Positions 4,086-49,924 of a stretch of DNA of 64,000 nt are shown here, piece after piece. The notes under the pieces were generated by a model. The model did not search any database. It had not been told where the DNA came from and saw only the letters and a program-made list of their open reading frames with translations. The position numbers and the translations under genes are program-made. The stretch lies in contig NZ_CP060131.1 of NCBI RefSeq assembly GCF_014235185.1, positions 3,665,501 to 3,729,500 on the forward strand, written 5' to 3'. The stretch comes from Pseudonocardia petroleophila. Its GTDB lineage: Bacteria; Actinomycetota; Actinomycetes; Mycobacteriales; Pseudonocardiaceae. The first letter of the stretch is position 1. Every line of letters starts with the position of its first letter.

Positions 4086-4170
4086 CGGCGCCCGTCCACG
4101 TCACCGTCCGCTTCGTGCACACTCCGTTGCGTTGTAGTCCCGGTCACAGTGCAGTGAGGAGAACCCGACG

Positions 4171-5670
<1,500 letters not shown>

Positions 5671-5722
5671 GGTCGACCCACATCGCCGACGCACACCGTT
5701 CCATCACAGGAGGAGAAAGCAC

Positions 5723-6133
5723 ATGGGCGTGTTCACCGACGAGTCCGAGGTCTACACCTACCTCGGCGGCATCTTCGAGCTGGCGACCAAGAAGGACGGG
5801 CTGTCCGACAAGCTCGCCGGGTCCGGGGTGGTCCTGCGGATCCACTACACCGACCCCGACTCGACCATCACGGTCGACATGCCGAACAAGGAGGTCGAGA
5901 CCGGCGGTGGCAGCACCAAGGAGCCCAACGTCGAGCTGTTCATGACCGCCGACACCGGCAACCGGTTCTGGCTCGGCAAGGTCAACCTCTCGGTGGCGAT
6001 GGCACGCGGCACGGTGCGCGCCAAGGGCCCGGTGCCGAAGCTGCTCAAGCTGATCCCCACGGCCAAGGAGCTCTTCCCGGAGTACGAGAAGATGCTCACC
6101 GAAGCCGGTCGCGACGACCTCGTCAACGCTTGA
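5723..6133 (+). CDS. SCP2-like sterol/lipid-binding protein
   Basis: This is a 136-residue stand-alone SCP2-type domain. It has the alternating strands of the fold (VVLRIHYTDPDSTITVDM, VELFMTADTGNRFWLGKVN) and a C-terminal helical part with GPVPKLLKLIPTAKELFPEY. The domain binds lipids or acyl-CoA in a hydrophobic tunnel. The ATG follows AGGAGGAG. Its place between an aldehyde dehydrogenase and an acyl-CoA synthetase suggests it carries a hydrophobic intermediate between them, which is inference. Confidence 0.85.
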   Translation: MGVFTDESEVYTYLGGIFELATKKDGLSDKLAGSGVVLRIHYTDPDSTITVDMPNKEVETGGGSTKEPNVELFMTADTGNRFWLGKVNLSVAMARGTVRAKGPVPKLLKLIPTAKELFPEYEKMLTEAGRDDLVNA

Positions 6134-6167
6134 TCACCCGCGTACCCGTCGAGATCGGAGTGCCACC

Positions 6168-7799
6168 GTGCTGAGCACGATGCAGAACATGCCTCTCACC
6201 GTCGGATCCGTGCTGCGGCACGCGTCCACCGTGCACGGTGGACGCGAGACGATCACCGCCGTCACGCCGGGATCGACCCGGCGGACCAGCTACGCCGAGC
6301 TCGGCGAGCGGGCGGCGCGGCTGGCGAACGCGCTGCGCGGGTTCGGTGTCACCGGTGACCAGCGGGTGGCCACGTTCCAGTGGAGCAACCAGGAGCATCT
6401 CGACGGGTACGCGGCCATCCCCTCGATGGGCGCGGTGCTGCACACGCTCAACCTGAGGCTGCCCCCACACCAGCTGTCCTACATCGCCAACCACGCCGAG
6501 GACGGCGTGCTGATCGTCGACGACACGCTGGTCCCGCTGCTGGCCCGCGCGCTGCCCGACATGACGACGGTGCACACGGTGCTGGTCACCGGCGGCGGAG
6601 ACCTCGCGCGGTTGGAGGGCCACGGCAAGCAGGTGCTGCGCTACGACGAGGTCCTCGCGGCGCAGTCCCCGGTGTTCGACTGGCCCGAGGTGGACGAGAA
6701 CTCGGCTGCCGCGATGTGCTACACCTCGGGCACCACCGGCAACCCGAAGGGAGTCGTGTACAGCCACCGCTCCATGTGGCTGCACTCCCAGGCGGCGTGC
6801 ACCACCAACGCGCTGGGCGTCGGCTACGACGACACGATCCTGGCGATCGTCCCGATGTTCCACGCCAACGCCTGGGGCCTGCCGTACGCCGCGATGATGG
6901 CCGGCGCCCAACTGCTGCTGCCGGGCCCGTTCCTGCAGGCCGCGCCGCTGGTGGCGATGATCGAGTCGGAGCGGCCCACGATGTCGGGTGCGGTGCCGAC
7001 GATCTGGAACGACATCCTCAACCACGTCCGGGCGAACCCGGGACATGACCTCAGTTCGCTCAAGTTCGTGGCGTGCGGCGGCTCCGCGGTGCCGCGCTCG
7101 CTGATGCAGGCCTTCGACGAGCTCGGGGTCCGGATCGTGCAGGCCTGGGGCATGACCGAGACCTCACCGCTGGCCTCGGTCGCGCTCCCGCCCGCCACCG
7201 CGACCCCCGAGGAGGCGATGCAGCTGCGCGGTACGCAGGGCCGCGTCGTCGCCGGGGTCGAGGCGCGCATCGTCGACGACGAGGGCACGCCGCTGCCGCA
7301 CGACGGCAAGTCGGTGGGGGAGCTCGAGGTCCGAGGGCCCTGGGTCACCGCCTCCTACTACGGGGACGAGGACCCGGAGAAGTTCCACGAGGGCTGGCTG
7401 CGCACCGGCGATGTCGGGCTGATCGATCCGGGCCAGTTCATCACCCTGACCGACCGGGCCAAGGACGTGATCAAGTCCGGCGGCGAGTGGATCTCGTCGG
7501 TCGAACTGGAGAACGAGCTGATCGGCCATCCGGACGTCATGACGGCTGCAGTGATCGCGGTGCCGGACGAGAAGTGGCAGGAACGCCCACTGGCCGCGGT
7601 CGTACGACGACCCGGGTCGACCGTCACGCCCGCCGAGCTGAACGAATTTCTCTCCGACAAGGTCGCGAAATGGTGGCTTCCAGAGCGATGGAGCTTCATC
7701 GACGAGGTGCCGCTGACCGGAACCGGGAAGTACGACAAGAAGGTGCTCCGTAAGCGCTACAGCGACGGGGAGCTTTCCGTGGAGAACATTTCCGGCTGA
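6168..7799 (+). CDS. Fatty-acyl-CoA synthetase (FadD-like, AMP-forming)
   Basis: The 543-residue ANL-family enzyme activates a carboxylic acid as the adenylate and transfers it to CoA. Signature segments are the P-loop YTSGTTGNPKGVVYSHRSM, the adenylate-binding WGMTETSP, the hinge TGDVG…, KDVIKSGGEWISSVELEN, and the catalytic lysine region GTGKYDKKVLRKRY. The length and sequence style resemble medium/long-chain enzymes. The GTG start has GGAG upstream. It ends the ALDH-SCP2-ligase run and is followed by a strong hairpin. Confidence 0.93.
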   Translation: MLSTMQNMPLTVGSVLRHASTVHGGRETITAVTPGSTRRTSYAELGERAARLANALRGFGVTGDQRVATFQWSNQEHLDGYAAIPSMGAVLHTLNLRLPPHQLSYIANHAEDGVLIVDDTLVPLLARALPDMTTVHTVLVTGGGDLARLEGHGKQVLRYDEVLAAQSPVFDWPEVDENSAAAMCYTSGTTGNPKGVVYSHRSMWLHSQAACTTNALGVGYDDTILAIVPMFHANAWGLPYAAMMAGAQLLLPGPFLQAAPLVAMIESERPTMSGAVPTIWNDILNHVRANPGHDLSSLKFVACGGSAVPRSLMQAFDELGVRIVQAWGMTETSPLASVALPPATATPEEAMQLRGTQGRVVAGVEARIVDDEGTPLPHDGKSVGELEVRGPWVTASYYGDEDPEKFHEGWLRTGDVGLIDPGQFITLTDRAKDVIKSGGEWISSVELENELIGHPDVMTAAVIAVPDEKWQERPLAAVVRRPGSTVTPAELNEFLSDKVAKWWLPERWSFIDEVPLTGTGKYDKKVLRKRYSDGELSVENISG

Positions 7800-45341: not shown

Positions 45342-45806
45342 TCACGGCTGGCTGCGTCGCCGCGGTGAGTCGTCCTGGGCAAGCTCCCGCAGCGCGGCCA
45401 GTCCCCGTTCGAGCCCGCGCAGGGCATCGACGTCGATGCGCATGAGCAACCGCCGGCGCCGCTTCTGGCCGGCCGCGGCGATCTGTTCGATGAGGGCGAG
45501 GCCCTCGGGGGTGAGGCCCGCGAGCCGGACCCGGCGATCACCGGCGTTCTCGATGCGGTGCACCAGCTTGCGCCCGACCAGCCGATCCACGATGCCGGTG
45601 ACGGTGGGCAGGGCCACACCGAGGGCGTGGGCGAGATCGCCCTGCGGGAGGGGGCCGTCCGTGTCGAGCAGCAGCAGTACGCGGAGCTGTTGCATGGTCA
45701 GGCCACTGTCGAACAGCGGGTCCGGCCCGGCCCGGGTGATCGCACGCCGCAGGACGGCCTCGTGCCGATCGATGGATGCGAGCAGCTCCAACCGTTCGCC
45801 GTCCAT
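45342..45806 (-). CDS. MarR family regulator of the adjacent RND pump
   Basis: The 154-residue protein has a MarR winged helix: FDSGLTMQQLRVLLLLDTDG, GDLAHALGVALPTVTGIVDR (recognition helix) and the wing KLVHRIENAGDRRVRLAGLT, followed by a C-terminal dimer helix. It is divergent from the RND gene with a 77-bp gap that holds an inverted repeat, the classical arrangement for MarR repression of an efflux pump. Confidence 0.92.
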   Translation of the reverse strand: MDGERLELLASIDRHEAVLRRAITRAGPDPLFDSGLTMQQLRVLLLLDTDGPLPQGDLAHALGVALPTVTGIVDRLVGRKLVHRIENAGDRRVRLAGLTPEGLALIEQIAAAGQKRRRRLLMRIDVDALRGLERGLAALRELAQDDSPRRRSQP

Positions 45807-45883: not shown

Positions 45884-48800
45884 ATGACCTGGCTCGCGCG
45901 TCTCAGCGTAACCAACCGTGCCGTCGTCGGACTGGTCACGGTGCTCGTCCTGGCGTTCGGCGTGTTCGCGGCCACCTCGCTTCGCCAGGAGCTGCTGCCC
46001 TCGCTCGAGCTGCCGGTGCTCACCGTGGTGACCCCATATCCCGGCGCATCACCCGAGTCCGTGGAGCGGCAGGTCACCGACCCGATCGAGACGGCTGTCG
46101 ACGGCGTCGACGGCCTGATCGGTTCCTCGTCGACGTCTACCGGCAGCAGTTCTGTGATCACCCTGGAGTTCACTTACGGTACCGATATCGACGAGTCCGC
46201 CACCGCGGTGGAGCGCGCGGTGGTGGGCATCGCGCTACCCGATGGCGTGACACCGACGGTCAGCGCGATCACCACCGACGCGATCCCGGTGCTGCAGCTC
46301 GCGGCATCGTCCGCGCTGGCCGACGACCAGCTCGCGGCGGTGCTGCGCGACGAGGTCCGCCCGCTGCTCGGCGGGCTCGACGGCGTCGGCCAGGTGATGT
46401 TGTCGGGCATTGCGGACCCCCGTGTCACGATCGACCTCGACGCCGCGGCCGCGGCCGACCGCGGCGTGTCGCCCGCGTCGATCTCCGAGGTGCTCCAGAC
46501 CAACGGCGTGCGGGTGCCCGCCGGTGAGTTGACCCCCGACACCGAACCGACGGCGGTCGAGGTCGGCACTCCGATCACGACCGTCGAGCAGCTGAGCGAG
46601 CTGTTCGTCGTCCCGGCGGCACCGGGTGCTGCCCCGGTGCGCCTGGGCGACGTCGCCGTCGTCACCGCCGAGCCCGCGCCGGCCACCGGGTACACCCGCA
46701 CCAACGGTGTGGCGAGCATCGGGATCGGCATCACGAAACTCCCCGATGCCAACACGATCGCGGTGTCCGAGGAAGTCACCGAGGCGCTCGGAGAGGTCGC
46801 CGACCTGCTCGGGGGAGCTGCGCAGGACGCCGAGGTCACGGTGGTGTTCGACCAGGCGCCGTTCATCGAGCAGTCGGTCGAGGACCTCACCACCGAGGGT
46901 CTGCTGGGCCTGCTGTTCGCCGTGCTGGTAATCCTGGGCTTCCTGCTCTCGGTGCGTGCCACCGTCGTGACAGCGGTGTCGATCCCGCTGTCGGTGCTGC
47001 TGGCGCTGATCGTGCTCTACCTCGGCGGCAACACGCTCAACATCCTCACCCTCGGCGCGCTCACCGTCGCCGTCGGGCGCGTCGTCGACGACTCGATCGT
47101 CGTCATCGAGAACATCAAGCGCCACATCGGCTACGGCGGCCCGCGGCGCCCGGCGATCCTCACCGCGATCCGTGAGGTGGCCGGCGCGATCACCGCCTCG
47201 ACGGTCACCACCGTCGCGGTGTTCGCCCCGATCGCCTTCGTCGGCGGTCAGGTCGGCGAACTGTTCCGACCGTTCGCGGTGACCGTCACCGCCGCGCTGC
47301 TCGCGTCGCTGATCGTCTCGCTGACGGTGGTGCCCGTGCTGGCGTCGGTGTTCCTGCGCAGCCCGTCCCCACCGGCCCACGCGGAGAGCCGCATCACCGA
47401 GGAGCCCACCGCGTTGCAGCGTGGCTACCTGCCGGTGCTCAACGGGGCGCTCGCTCGCCCGGCACTCTCGCTCGCGCTCGCCGTCGCGATCCTGGGTGGG
47501 ACCGTCGCCCTGGTGCCGCTGCTGGAGACCAACTTCCTGGGCGACTCGGGGGGCGACACCCTCACCGTGACCCAGGAGCTCGATCCCGGCACCGGGCTGC
47601 CCCGGGCCGACGCCGCCGCGCGGCAGGTGGAAGACGTCCTCGCCGGCACCGACGACGTCGAGACCTACCAGGTCACGGTCGGCTCCCCGGCCGGTGGCGC
47701 CGTGCTGCTCGGCCCACCCGGGGACTTCGAGAGCACGGCGACCCGGTTCTCGGTGACCCTCGCCGAGGATGCCGACGTCGACGCGGTGGCCGCCGACCTG
47801 CGCGAGGCGTTCGGTGACCTGACCGACGCGGGTACGTTGACGGTCACCGCCGGGCAGGGCGGATTCGGCACCGACGAGCTCGCCGTCGACGTCCGCGCCC
47901 AGGACCCCGAGGCCCTGGCCGAGGCCGCCGCCACGGTGCAGCGGGCCGTCGAGGCCATCCCGGGCGCGAGCGACGTGCGCAACAACCTCTCCGCCGAGCA
48001 GACCACGGTGGACGTGGCCGTGGATCGGCGGCTGGCCGCCGAACAGGGGCTCACCGAGGTGGCGGTGGGCCAGGCCGTGGCCACGGCGCTGCGCGGCTCC
48101 ACCGTCGGCACGGTGACGATCGACGGGGTCGAGCAGGACGTCGTGCTGCGCACCGGTGACGTCCCGGCCGACCTGGCCGCGTTGCGGGCGCTGCCGCTGG
48201 GCGCGGTGACCCTCGCCGACGTCGCCACGATCACCGACAAGGCCACGGTGCCGACGATCGTGCGGGCCGACGGCGAACGCAGCGCACAGATCACCGCCCG
48301 CCCCGACGCAGACGACCTCGGCACCGTCACCTCCGACCTGCGGGCCGAGCTCGACGAACTCGACCTCCCGGCCGGCGTGACGGCGGAGATCGGTGGGATC
48401 AGCGCCGACCAGGAGGATGCGTTCATCCAGCTCGGGCTCGCATTGCTGGCCGCGATCGCCGTGGTCTACCTCGTCATGGTCGTGACGTTCCGCAGCCTGC
48501 TGCAGCCCCTGCTGCTGCTCATCGCGATCCCGTTCGCGGCAACCGGGGCGCTCGGCCTGCTGCTGATCACCGGCATACCGCTGGGGGTGCCCGCGCTGAT
48601 CGGCATGCTGCTGCTCGTCGGGATCGTGGTCACCAACGCGATCGTCCTGATCGATCTGGTCAACCAGTACCGGCGCGACGGACGTCCGGTGCGCGAGGCC
48701 CTGGTCGAAGGCTCGCTGCAGCGGCTGCGCCCGATCCTGATGACGGCGGTGGCCACGGTGTTCGCCCTGTTGCCACTGGCGTTGGGTTTCACCGGCGGCG

Positions 48801-49924
48801 GTGGCGGGTTCATCGCCCAGCCGCTCGCGGTGGTCGTGATAGGCGGCCTGGTCACCTCCACGCTGCTCACCCTCGTCCTGGTGCCGGTGCTCTATCTGCT
48901 CGTCGAGCGCCGCGGGGACGGTCGGTCGGCGGCGGAGGACACCGCGGACCAGCGATCCGCGGACCGTGGGCCGGCTGGCGAGTGGCAGACACCAGCGGGG
49001 CGGGAGCCTCTTGCCGCAGCGGCGCTGGGCACCGGAGCCGGGGCGACCGCGGGCGCCGCGATGCCGGCGAGCACGGCTATGGTCGCCGAGGGGTTCGCTG
49101 CAACGCCCGAGCCGAGGACCTTCGAAGCTGCCCCGGCCGGCCCGGCGCTCTACGGACAGCTCACCGATCGCGACGGGAACCCGCTGGCCGCCGCCGCGGT
49201 CGCCGTGTTCGACGGCACGGGTAGCCAGGTCGTCGCCACCTGCTCGGACAGTCGGGGTGGCTACCGCGTCGACCTGTCGGCGGCAGGGGAGTACCTGCTC
49301 GTCGGGCAGTCCGGCGGCCGTGAGCCCGCGACCGAGTGGGTCGTGGTCACCGACGACGCCGTCCGTCGCGACCTGGCCGTCGACGGCCCGGCCTGTGTGA
49401 CCGGCCGGATCCGGTCCGCCACCGCAACGGGGGTGCCCGCGCTGGTCACCGTCGTCGACCTCGCCGGGCAGCGGGTCGCCGGCGGGCGGGCCGACACCGA
49501 CGGGCGCTACCTGCTCACGCAGGTCCCCGCCGGGGAGCACCGGCTCCTCGCAGCACCCGCCACCGGACCCTCGGCCTCGACGCTGATCCGGGTGCCGCAG
49601 ACCGGCACCGTCCGCCAGGACATCGACCTCGCCCCGGCCGGCGAGGTGACCGGCACGGTCCGCTCGCGACAGGGCACGCCGATCGGCGGTGCCGTGGCCA
49701 CCGTCATCGATGCCGACGGCACGATGGTGGCGACCGGTCGCACCGCCGCCGACGGGTCGTTCCGGCTGTCAGGGCTGCCCGAGGGCACCTACACCGTCAC
49801 AGCCAGCAACGGCCTTCCCGCCACAGGCACCGTCGAGGTGCGCCACGACGGGCCGGTCAGCACGAGCCTGGAGCTCGGGGATCCGGTCATCCCGAGCGAG
49901 GCGGAGAACGGTCACGTCACCTGA
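45884..49924 (+). CDS. AcrB-like RND efflux pump with three extra C-terminal beta-sandwich domains
   Basis: The 1346-residue protein has a full RND core (1 to about 1008): N-terminal helix (AVVGLVTVLVLAFGVFAATS), two large porter loops and twelve helices. The proton-relay pair is in GRVVDDSIVVIENIKRH on helix 4. After an Ala-rich linker (about 1010-1085) come three domains of 75-80 residues (YGQLTDRDGNPLAAAAVAVF, VTGRIRSATATGVPALVTVV, VTGTVRSRQGTPIGGAVATV) of the carboxypeptidase-regulatory/Cna-B-like type. The final helix places these in the cytoplasm by standard RND topology. The RND core exports hydrophobic toxicants; the tail's role is unknown. Confidence 0.92.
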   Translation: MTWLARLSVTNRAVVGLVTVLVLAFGVFAATSLRQELLPSLELPVLTVVTPYPGASPESVERQVTDPIETAVDGVDGLIGSSSTSTGSSSVITLEFTYGTDIDESATAVERAVVGIALPDGVTPTVSAITTDAIPVLQLAASSALADDQLAAVLRDEVRPLLGGLDGVGQVMLSGIADPRVTIDLDAAAAADRGVSPASISEVLQTNGVRVPAGELTPDTEPTAVEVGTPITTVEQLSELFVVPAAPGAAPVRLGDVAVVTAEPAPATGYTRTNGVASIGIGITKLPDANTIAVSEEVTEALGEVADLLGGAAQDAEVTVVFDQAPFIEQSVEDLTTEGLLGLLFAVLVILGFLLSVRATVVTAVSIPLSVLLALIVLYLGGNTLNILTLGALTVAVGRVVDDSIVVIENIKRHIGYGGPRRPAILTAIREVAGAITASTVTTVAVFAPIAFVGGQVGELFRPFAVTVTAALLASLIVSLTVVPVLASVFLRSPSPPAHAESRITEEPTALQRGYLPVLNGALARPALSLALAVAILGGTVALVPLLETNFLGDSGGDTLTVTQELDPGTGLPRADAAARQVEDVLAGTDDVETYQVTVGSPAGGAVLLGPPGDFESTATRFSVTLAEDADVDAVAADLREAFGDLTDAGTLTVTAGQGGFGTDELAVDVRAQDPEALAEAAATVQRAVEAIPGASDVRNNLSAEQTTVDVAVDRRLAAEQGLTEVAVGQAVATALRGSTVGTVTIDGVEQDVVLRTGDVPADLAALRALPLGAVTLADVATITDKATVPTIVRADGERSAQITARPDADDLGTVTSDLRAELDELDLPAGVTAEIGGISADQEDAFIQLGLALLAAIAVVYLVMVVTFRSLLQPLLLLIAIPFAATGALGLLLITGIPLGVPALIGMLLLVGIVVTNAIVLIDLVNQYRRDGRPVREALVEGSLQRLRPILMTAVATVFALLPLALGFTGGGGGFIAQPLAVVVIGGLVTSTLLTLVLVPVLYLLVERRGDGRSAAEDTADQRSADRGPAGEWQTPAGREPLAAAALGTGAGATAGAAMPASTAMVAEGFAATPEPRTFEAAPAGPALYGQLTDRDGNPLAAAAVAVFDGTGSQVVATCSDSRGGYRVDLSAAGEYLLVGQSGGREPATEWVVVTDDAVRRDLAVDGPACVTGRIRSATATGVPALVTVVDLAGQRVAGGRADTDGRYLLTQVPAGEHRLLAAPATGPSASTLIRVPQTGTVRQDIDLAPAGEVTGTVRSRQGTPIGGAVATVIDADGTMVATGRTAADGSFRLSGLPEGTYTVTASNGLPATGTVEVRHDGPVSTSLELGDPVIPSEAENGHVT

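Follow-up and report, generated by a model that had tools for sequence, protein, structure and literature searches.

An RND permease of Pseudonocardia with a CarboxypepD_reg tail of a kind shared with other actinobacterial exporters

RND permeases of the ACR_tran type, such as AcrB, MexB and MdtB, have a core of 12 helices with a pair of aspartates (DD), and in AcrB-type pumps a lysine of the tenth transmembrane helix (TM10) is part of the proton relay. Added domains are met on other transporters: SusC-type proteins, which are outer-membrane receptors, carry an N-terminal domain resembling CarboxypepD_reg (hereafter CpD) in the periplasm. QsdH is an N-acyl homoserine lactone lactonase fused to an RND transporter; its enzyme part is N-terminal and is placed by the authors in the first periplasmic loop (PMC3466314). 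Here we describe a gene in a 64,000-nucleotide stretch of Pseudonocardia petroleophila (contig NZ_CP060131.1, positions 3,665,501 to 3,729,500; this whole stretch is the window, and its positions are used for coordinates) that encodes an RND permease followed in one frame by a linker and three CpD domains. An earlier note on this DNA had read it as an RND pump fused to three carboxypeptidase-regulatory/Cna-B-like domains, and the comparisons below confirm a real, lineage-specific domain fusion. Like QsdH, the protein is an RND permease with an added domain, but its added domains are C-terminal and predicted to be cytosolic.

The core of the pump matches ACR_tran as a full-length domain (residues 5-1007, profile positions 2-1020 of 1021, E 1.3e-207; Pfam), and the 12 helices predicted from hydropathy leave the two large loops typical of RND pumps, 307 residues after helix 1 and 303 after helix 7. 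Its best solved relative is MdtB (9lyq, E 5.8e-97), AcrB and MexB being matched as well, and Asp402-Asp403 is presumably the proton relay of TM4. Unlike AcrB, MexB and MdtB, however, the pump has threonine for the TM10 lysine: Thr917 (48632-48634) aligns with that lysine in the solved pump 8f3e, and among 36 aligned sequences the position holds T in 30, S in 5 and I in one, lysine in none. The complete core with its proton relay claimed in the earlier note thus stands for the full domain and the aspartate pair and fails for the TM10 lysine. Since no NCBIfam subfamily cut-off is reached, the pump is not assignable to a substrate class: the AcrB-type model TIGR00915 (2A0602) gives 378.9 bits against a cut-off of 940.35, the CusA/CzcA heavy-metal RND model TIGR00914 gives 363 against 701.45, and even the best-scoring model, RND_permease_2 (NF033617), gives 577.5 against 1250. 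With the curated models below cut-off and the lysine replaced, a label of HAE1 was dropped. No gene for an adaptor (membrane fusion protein) or an outer-membrane factor was noticed by eye in the listed neighbourhoods, for which no adaptor profile search was made.

Behind the core, CarboxypepD_reg is matched in three stretches (E 8.5e-30, 103.4 bits against a gathering cut-off of 32.3; Pfam), and a purpose-built hidden Markov model (HMM) of the repeat gives lengths of 82-83 residues each, close to the 75-80 proposed earlier. The nearest orthologues are those of P. oceani (91%) and of a metagenome-assembled genome of the Pseudonocardiales (90%). Orthologues were sought with short patterns and the best 80 loci from named genomes were kept, which is a sample and no census. 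Ten of these loci (L008-L017) belong to Pseudonocardia or the Pseudonocardiales; CpD repeats are present in nine of them, three copies in six loci, two in two and one in one, and the tenth (L011) reaches a contig end 35 residues past residue 1005. Among the 70 loci from outside the genus (L018-L087, of which L025 is cut by a contig end) the repeat HMM found none with CpD repeats: 66 have 12 to 65 residues past residue 1005, and the other four have unrelated longer tails, examined as CpD candidates and rejected, L022 and L028 being Pro-rich (L028 also Gln-rich), and L058 and L078 having hydrophobic segments at the end instead (by eye). The absence from all orthologues that the earlier note had named as a refutation therefore does not hold, although the tail is absent from every one found outside the genus.

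Within this genus of soil bacteria the pump is present in 19 of 60 genomes, that of P. petroleophila included (E <= 1e-40), and a CpD sequence lies behind it in all 19 carriers, on the same contig in 18; nine carriers have three repeats, eight have two and two have one. Some of these genes are irregular. In G052 (locus L131) core and tail are in different frames, through a sequencing slip or decay, and G023 has an interrupted core frame; G033 has the two parts on separate contigs, their connection being presumed because both lie at contig ends; and in G024 an intact pump gene is accompanied by another copy, which seems to be divided between contigs C685 and C396. The tail-less relatives among the best 80 loci are mainly from Cellulomonadaceae, Promicromonosporaceae, Micrococcaceae and Microbacteriaceae (family names partly from general knowledge), with no other Pseudonocardiaceae among them; horizontal gain is possible.

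The tail very probably lies in the cytosol, as predicted from the 12 helices, the absence of a later hydrophobic window, the arginine pair behind the last helix and AlphaFold models. No thirteenth helix is predicted from residue 1012 on, either by hydropathy, where the best 19-residue window scores 1.27 against a threshold of 1.6 for a helix, or by AlphaFold; the arginines are residues 1009-1010, nine residues past the last helix. An AlphaFold model of residues 845-1346 (36 sequences, mean predicted local distance difference test, pLDDT, 78.6; predicted template modelling score, pTM, 0.36) shows the C-terminal part of the core as five helices, residues 1018-1079 as disordered (model residues 174-235, pLDDT <50) and, after these, beta domains (block pLDDT mostly 83-96), the placement of which relative to the membrane AlphaFold does not predict with confidence. 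The oddity pointed out in the earlier note, beta domains on a cytoplasmic C-terminus, holds at the level of prediction throughout.

A model of the tail by itself (10 sequences, mean pLDDT 85.5, pTM 0.53) was compared with solved structures domain by domain. VIA-align retrieves carboxypeptidase N/D regulatory and transthyretin-like domains, in rows that cover a single domain, with Z of about 9-13.6 over about 80 residues, among them the carboxypeptidase N/D regulatory domains (Z 12.4 and 12.2), transthyretin (Z about 9), a domain of pyrogallol-phloroglucinol transhydroxylase (Z 11.5), which we take to be a cytoplasmic enzyme, and the N-terminal extension of SusCdex (9hfj; Z 10.7, 78 residues, root mean square deviation 2.2), presumably a SusC-type protein. 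As regards constraint, the ratio of nonsynonymous to synonymous substitution (dN/dS) against the two nearest relatives is 0.26 for the core, 0.61-0.62 for the linker and 0.59-0.73 for the tail, with repeat 1 at about 1 (0.95 and 1.14); the tail ratio is raised because dS is low (0.09-0.12), and the counts are small. By dN the linker (residues 1011-1084) is highest, 0.20, with 0.035-0.036 for the core and 0.065-0.070 for the tail. The tail is 36-55% identical to those of seven more distant congeners, the linkers of which align poorly with one another (by eye), and we read this as moderate constraint on the tail.

The tail recurs as a module in actinobacteria. Searched with it, 54 of the 60 Pseudonocardia genomes give a match at E <= 1e-3, and in the class survey, in which ten candidates per genome were scored, 34 of 246 genomes match at E <= 1e-12 (own genome included), from 10 of 104 genera. 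Pfam scans were run on chosen open reading frames, the remaining tail-bearing frames being sorted by hydropathy alone. MFS_1 and CpD occur together above the Pfam cut-off in 12 scanned proteins, from Pseudonocardia (L107, L111, L118, L122, L124, L133) and from the class set (L180, L184, L186, L187, L189, L198); MMPL and CpD share one protein (L179), and ACR_tran and CpD are also joined in L104, a second Pseudonocardia RND protein. The six Pseudonocardia MFS proteins are nearest to DHA2 and tetracycline-efflux types (NCBIfam), although a curated cut-off is exceeded by that of L107 alone (efflux_EmrB, 252.3 against 230.2). These DHA2-like exporters (EmrB/OtrB-like) belong to another transporter superfamily than the pump, yet carry the same kind of C-terminal tail. 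In a tree built from the 133 repeats of 43 chosen loci, for which the program warns of few columns, one 35-row group (support 97/94) unites the first repeats of all 12 RND tails included with those of many MFS proteins, the MMPL protein and several solo proteins; the RND first repeats form a 12-row subgroup within it (100/96). First repeats of L122, L124, L128, L186, L187, L189, L191 and L148 lie outside the 35-row group, and for repeats 2 and 3 the tree does not separate the RND tails from the MFS proteins.

Several further tail-bearing proteins were observed. The MMPL transporter of L179 (525-3950), from another actinobacterial family, has three CpD repeats by the HMM, and in L180 (527-4009) an MFS exporter, three CpD stretches and a DUF1622 follow one another in a single frame. 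Tail-bearing frames with zero or one to three helices occur in L134, L136, L137, L141 and, in the own genome, L088; the last (4126-7185) is a 1019-residue frame that contains a hydrophobic stretch and a long part rich in Asp and Ala and has two CpD repeats at its C-terminus, and similar-looking proteins occur in L134 and L136. In L148 an MFS gene is followed, after about a dozen bases, by the start of a solo CpD frame. To read the pair as an exporter and its detached tail was rejected, the MFS protein having one CpD of its own (30.7 bits, cut-off 32.3; it is this domain that forms the L148 row of the tree), and the locus counts as no more than an exporter with a distinct CpD protein next to it.

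The gene directly after many of the MFS-CpD genes encodes a protein with CpD in front of YceI, an architecture checked with Pfam in L106, L143 and the own-genome L089. Such a gene is present in 10 of 25 fetched Pseudonocardia MFS-tail loci, for which 0.5-1.7 kb of downstream sequence was at hand, and after the tail in eight distinct loci of the class survey. In the 60 genomes, with matches to the YceI part alone excluded, CpD-YceI genes were sorted into 40 of type A (E <= 1e-118, like the own-genome one) and 31 of type B (E 1e-53 to 1e-43). Each of the 31 is found directly downstream, on the same strand, of a match to the CpD triple (one such match being partial), and the upstream frames are at least 800 residues long in 20 cases, at most 320 in seven and between these in four; no type-A gene (0/40) is beside a listed triple match, the 72 stronger tail matches being used and the weak end excluded. 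In 24 distinct loci the start, taken by script as the start codon nearest to the CpD domain on its upstream side, is predicted at -4 from the preceding stop in 15, at -8 in five and at +44 to +354 in four. A conserved row was also read in six Pseudonocardia genomes (L142-L147) and checked with Pfam in one: a solo CpD triple, a CpD-YceI gene and, farther along, genes for an AurF-type oxygenase and a ferredoxin-linked reductase. Among the open-access matches listed, judged by titles and the starts of abstracts, we found nothing on CpD tails of exporters or on CpD-YceI coupling; the pump thus joins a wider class of CpD-armed exporters for which no description was found there.

A described protein with a YceI domain is the lipocalin BcnA, which sequesters rifampin, polymyxin B, norfloxacin and ceftazidime and binds hydrophobic antibiotics, and orthologues of which, including M. 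tuberculosis Rv1890c, restore resistance (PMC5350466). BcnA is secreted, whereas the CpD-YceI proteins have CpD at their start and appear to be cytosolic, and so the function of BcnA is carried over to them only by inference.

Similar tails on unrelated exporters often precede a gene for a predicted small-molecule-binding protein with a matching domain, and for this reason a cytosolic docking arm for CpD-bearing partners is the reading we put forward for the tail, at about even chances. A proton-driven RND exporter would have acquired, in the Pseudonocardia lineage, a C-terminal arm in the cytosol, in which a flexible linker bears up to three CpD domains of transthyretin-like fold, drawn from the same pool as the arms of actinobacterial DHA2-like MFS exporters, and soluble partners would dock on this arm, on the inner side of the membrane, through contact between CpD domains. 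In the MFS version the partner would be the cytosolic CpD-YceI lipocalin from the next, often overlapping gene, which could bind a lipophilic compound as cargo and bring it to the exporter; a similar partner of the RND arm would act in trans. That cargo is handed to the RND pump by a YceI-type protein is rather unlikely. We offer only tentatively the wider proposal that CpD is a transferable cytosolic docking code, by which the arms of exporters of three unrelated kinds, RND, DHA2-like MFS and MMPL, would bind CpD-tagged proteins, chiefly CpD-YceI proteins that gather lipophilic drugs or metabolites inside the cell and pass them to the pump. Recruitment of a partner had been suggested in the earlier note and is still a good guess; its interpretation as a whole is partly supported.

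Several observations weigh against docking. Known RND pumps take substrate mainly from the periplasmic side, which fits poorly with a cytosolic hand-off. By HMM no YceI gene is found at the RND loci (L008-L017, L102-L105, L130-L132, L199-L204), unlike at many of the MFS loci, nor at the 70 tail-less RND loci. CpD-YceI genes of either type occur in 17 of the 19 genomes with the pump and in 27 of the 41 without it, which is no clear difference; two carriers, G040 and G055, lack a CpD-YceI match at E <= 1e-30. The own-genome CpD-YceI (genome position 3363017-3363901) is of type A, the type beside no listed triple; the partner gene follows in only ten of the 25 Pseudonocardia MFS-tail loci; and the type-B coupling was counted over CpD-triple matches only. 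The higher dN/dS of the tail than of the core against the two close relatives and the variation from one to three repeats among carriers point the same way. The evidence that the RND pump needs a CpD-YceI partner is weak.

Other explanations of the tail were weighed on the same data. An artefact of assembly or sequencing, which the earlier note had named as a refutation, has nothing in its favour and a negligible probability: independent assemblies, including those of the named species P. oceani, P. xinjiangensis, P. nigra and P. lacus, share the architecture, and a fusion artefact is therefore excluded in practice. That an extra helix puts the domains outside the cell as an adhesin or stalk, the alternative raised in the earlier note, is very improbable, even though the top Foldseek matches are mostly surface or extracellular proteins (TIE protein and the BcpA and SpaA pilins, of Cna-B/pilin-like type). 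Besides the missing thirteenth helix, residues 1085-1346 contain no lysine, so that the Lys-Asn isopeptide bond of Cna-B domains is impossible and a stalk stabilised by it is excluded; small solo frames resembling the tail have no hydrophobic segment (L139, L140, L142-L149, L191, L195 and the contig-cut L098); and the first 45 residues of the CpD-YceI proteins, from scripted starts, look free of signal peptides by eye. The extracellular location of a surface adhesin or pilin is thus contrary to what is predicted. L098 starts at a contig edge and was not used as a natural split of tail from pump.

A tail that works without a protein partner, sensing a small molecule or the state of the trimer and gating the pump, or stabilising or clustering trimers, is a somewhat improbable account. 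The likeness of the domains to carboxypeptidase N/D regulatory domains and to transthyretin, which holds small aromatic ligands (structure-entry titles), speaks for it, as does the lack of a YceI neighbour at the RND gene; but similarity of fold is no proof of function, some 60 disordered residues argue against rigid coupling to the core, and the 31/31 coupling of other CpD triples to CpD-YceI would be left unexplained. It is also unlikely that the arm is a near-neutral passenger, gained by recombination with an MFS exporter gene and kept as harmless. This would agree with the dN/dS of the tail, above all that of repeat 1, with the variable copy number and with the frame difference in G052, yet CpD is found behind the pump in every carrier (by presumption across contig ends in G033), identity is retained with the more distant congeners, the dN of the tail is one third of that of the linker, and other exporters bear arms of this kind as well.

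The features of the locus are collected in Table 1. A MarR-like gene also occupies this place in four of the ten RND neighbourhoods listed (L008, L010, L012, L017; these by eye). A small nitroreductase-like gene precedes the pump gene in L014 and L015, and a GlcG/HbpS-like one follows it in L014-L016, MarR not adjoining in these loci (names by eye). The pump region of the window is flanked by a near-identical direct repeat of about 0.8 kb (40123 to ~40945 and 51563 to ~52385, spacing 11440), free of mismatches over long stretches, which holds part of a BtrH_N/DUF4872 gene; transposase-like reading frames seem to adjoin both copies (by eye).

Table 1. Features of the pump locus, in window positions.
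Feature	Position	Strand	Basis or remark
RND permease-CpD x3 fusion gene	45884..49924	+	1346 residues, no internal stop in translation
RND (ACR_tran) core, residues 1-1010	45884..48913	+	Pfam; 12 hydropathy peaks
Asp402-Asp403 pair	47087..47092	+	residue position in TM4
Disordered Ala/Gly-rich linker, residues 1018-1079	48935..49120	+	AlphaFold pLDDT <50
CpD repeat 1, residues 1085-1167	49136..49384	+	repeat HMM; beta strands in AlphaFold models
CpD repeat 2, residues 1168-1250	49385..49633	+	repeat HMM; AlphaFold models
CpD repeat 3, residues 1251-1332	49634..49879	+	Pfam, repeat HMM, AlphaFold models
MarR-family regulator	45342..45806	-	Pfam MarR, E 1.1e-14; 77 bases from divergent pump gene

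The docking idea is readily testable, because many of the MFS forms have the presumed partner as an overlapping next gene. If it is true, it would give a function to a widespread and unexplained actinobacterial domain; and were the arm to dock a cytosolic carrier, some exporters would be supplied from inside the cell, by a route of efflux which to our knowledge is absent from the usual picture of RND or MFS pumps.

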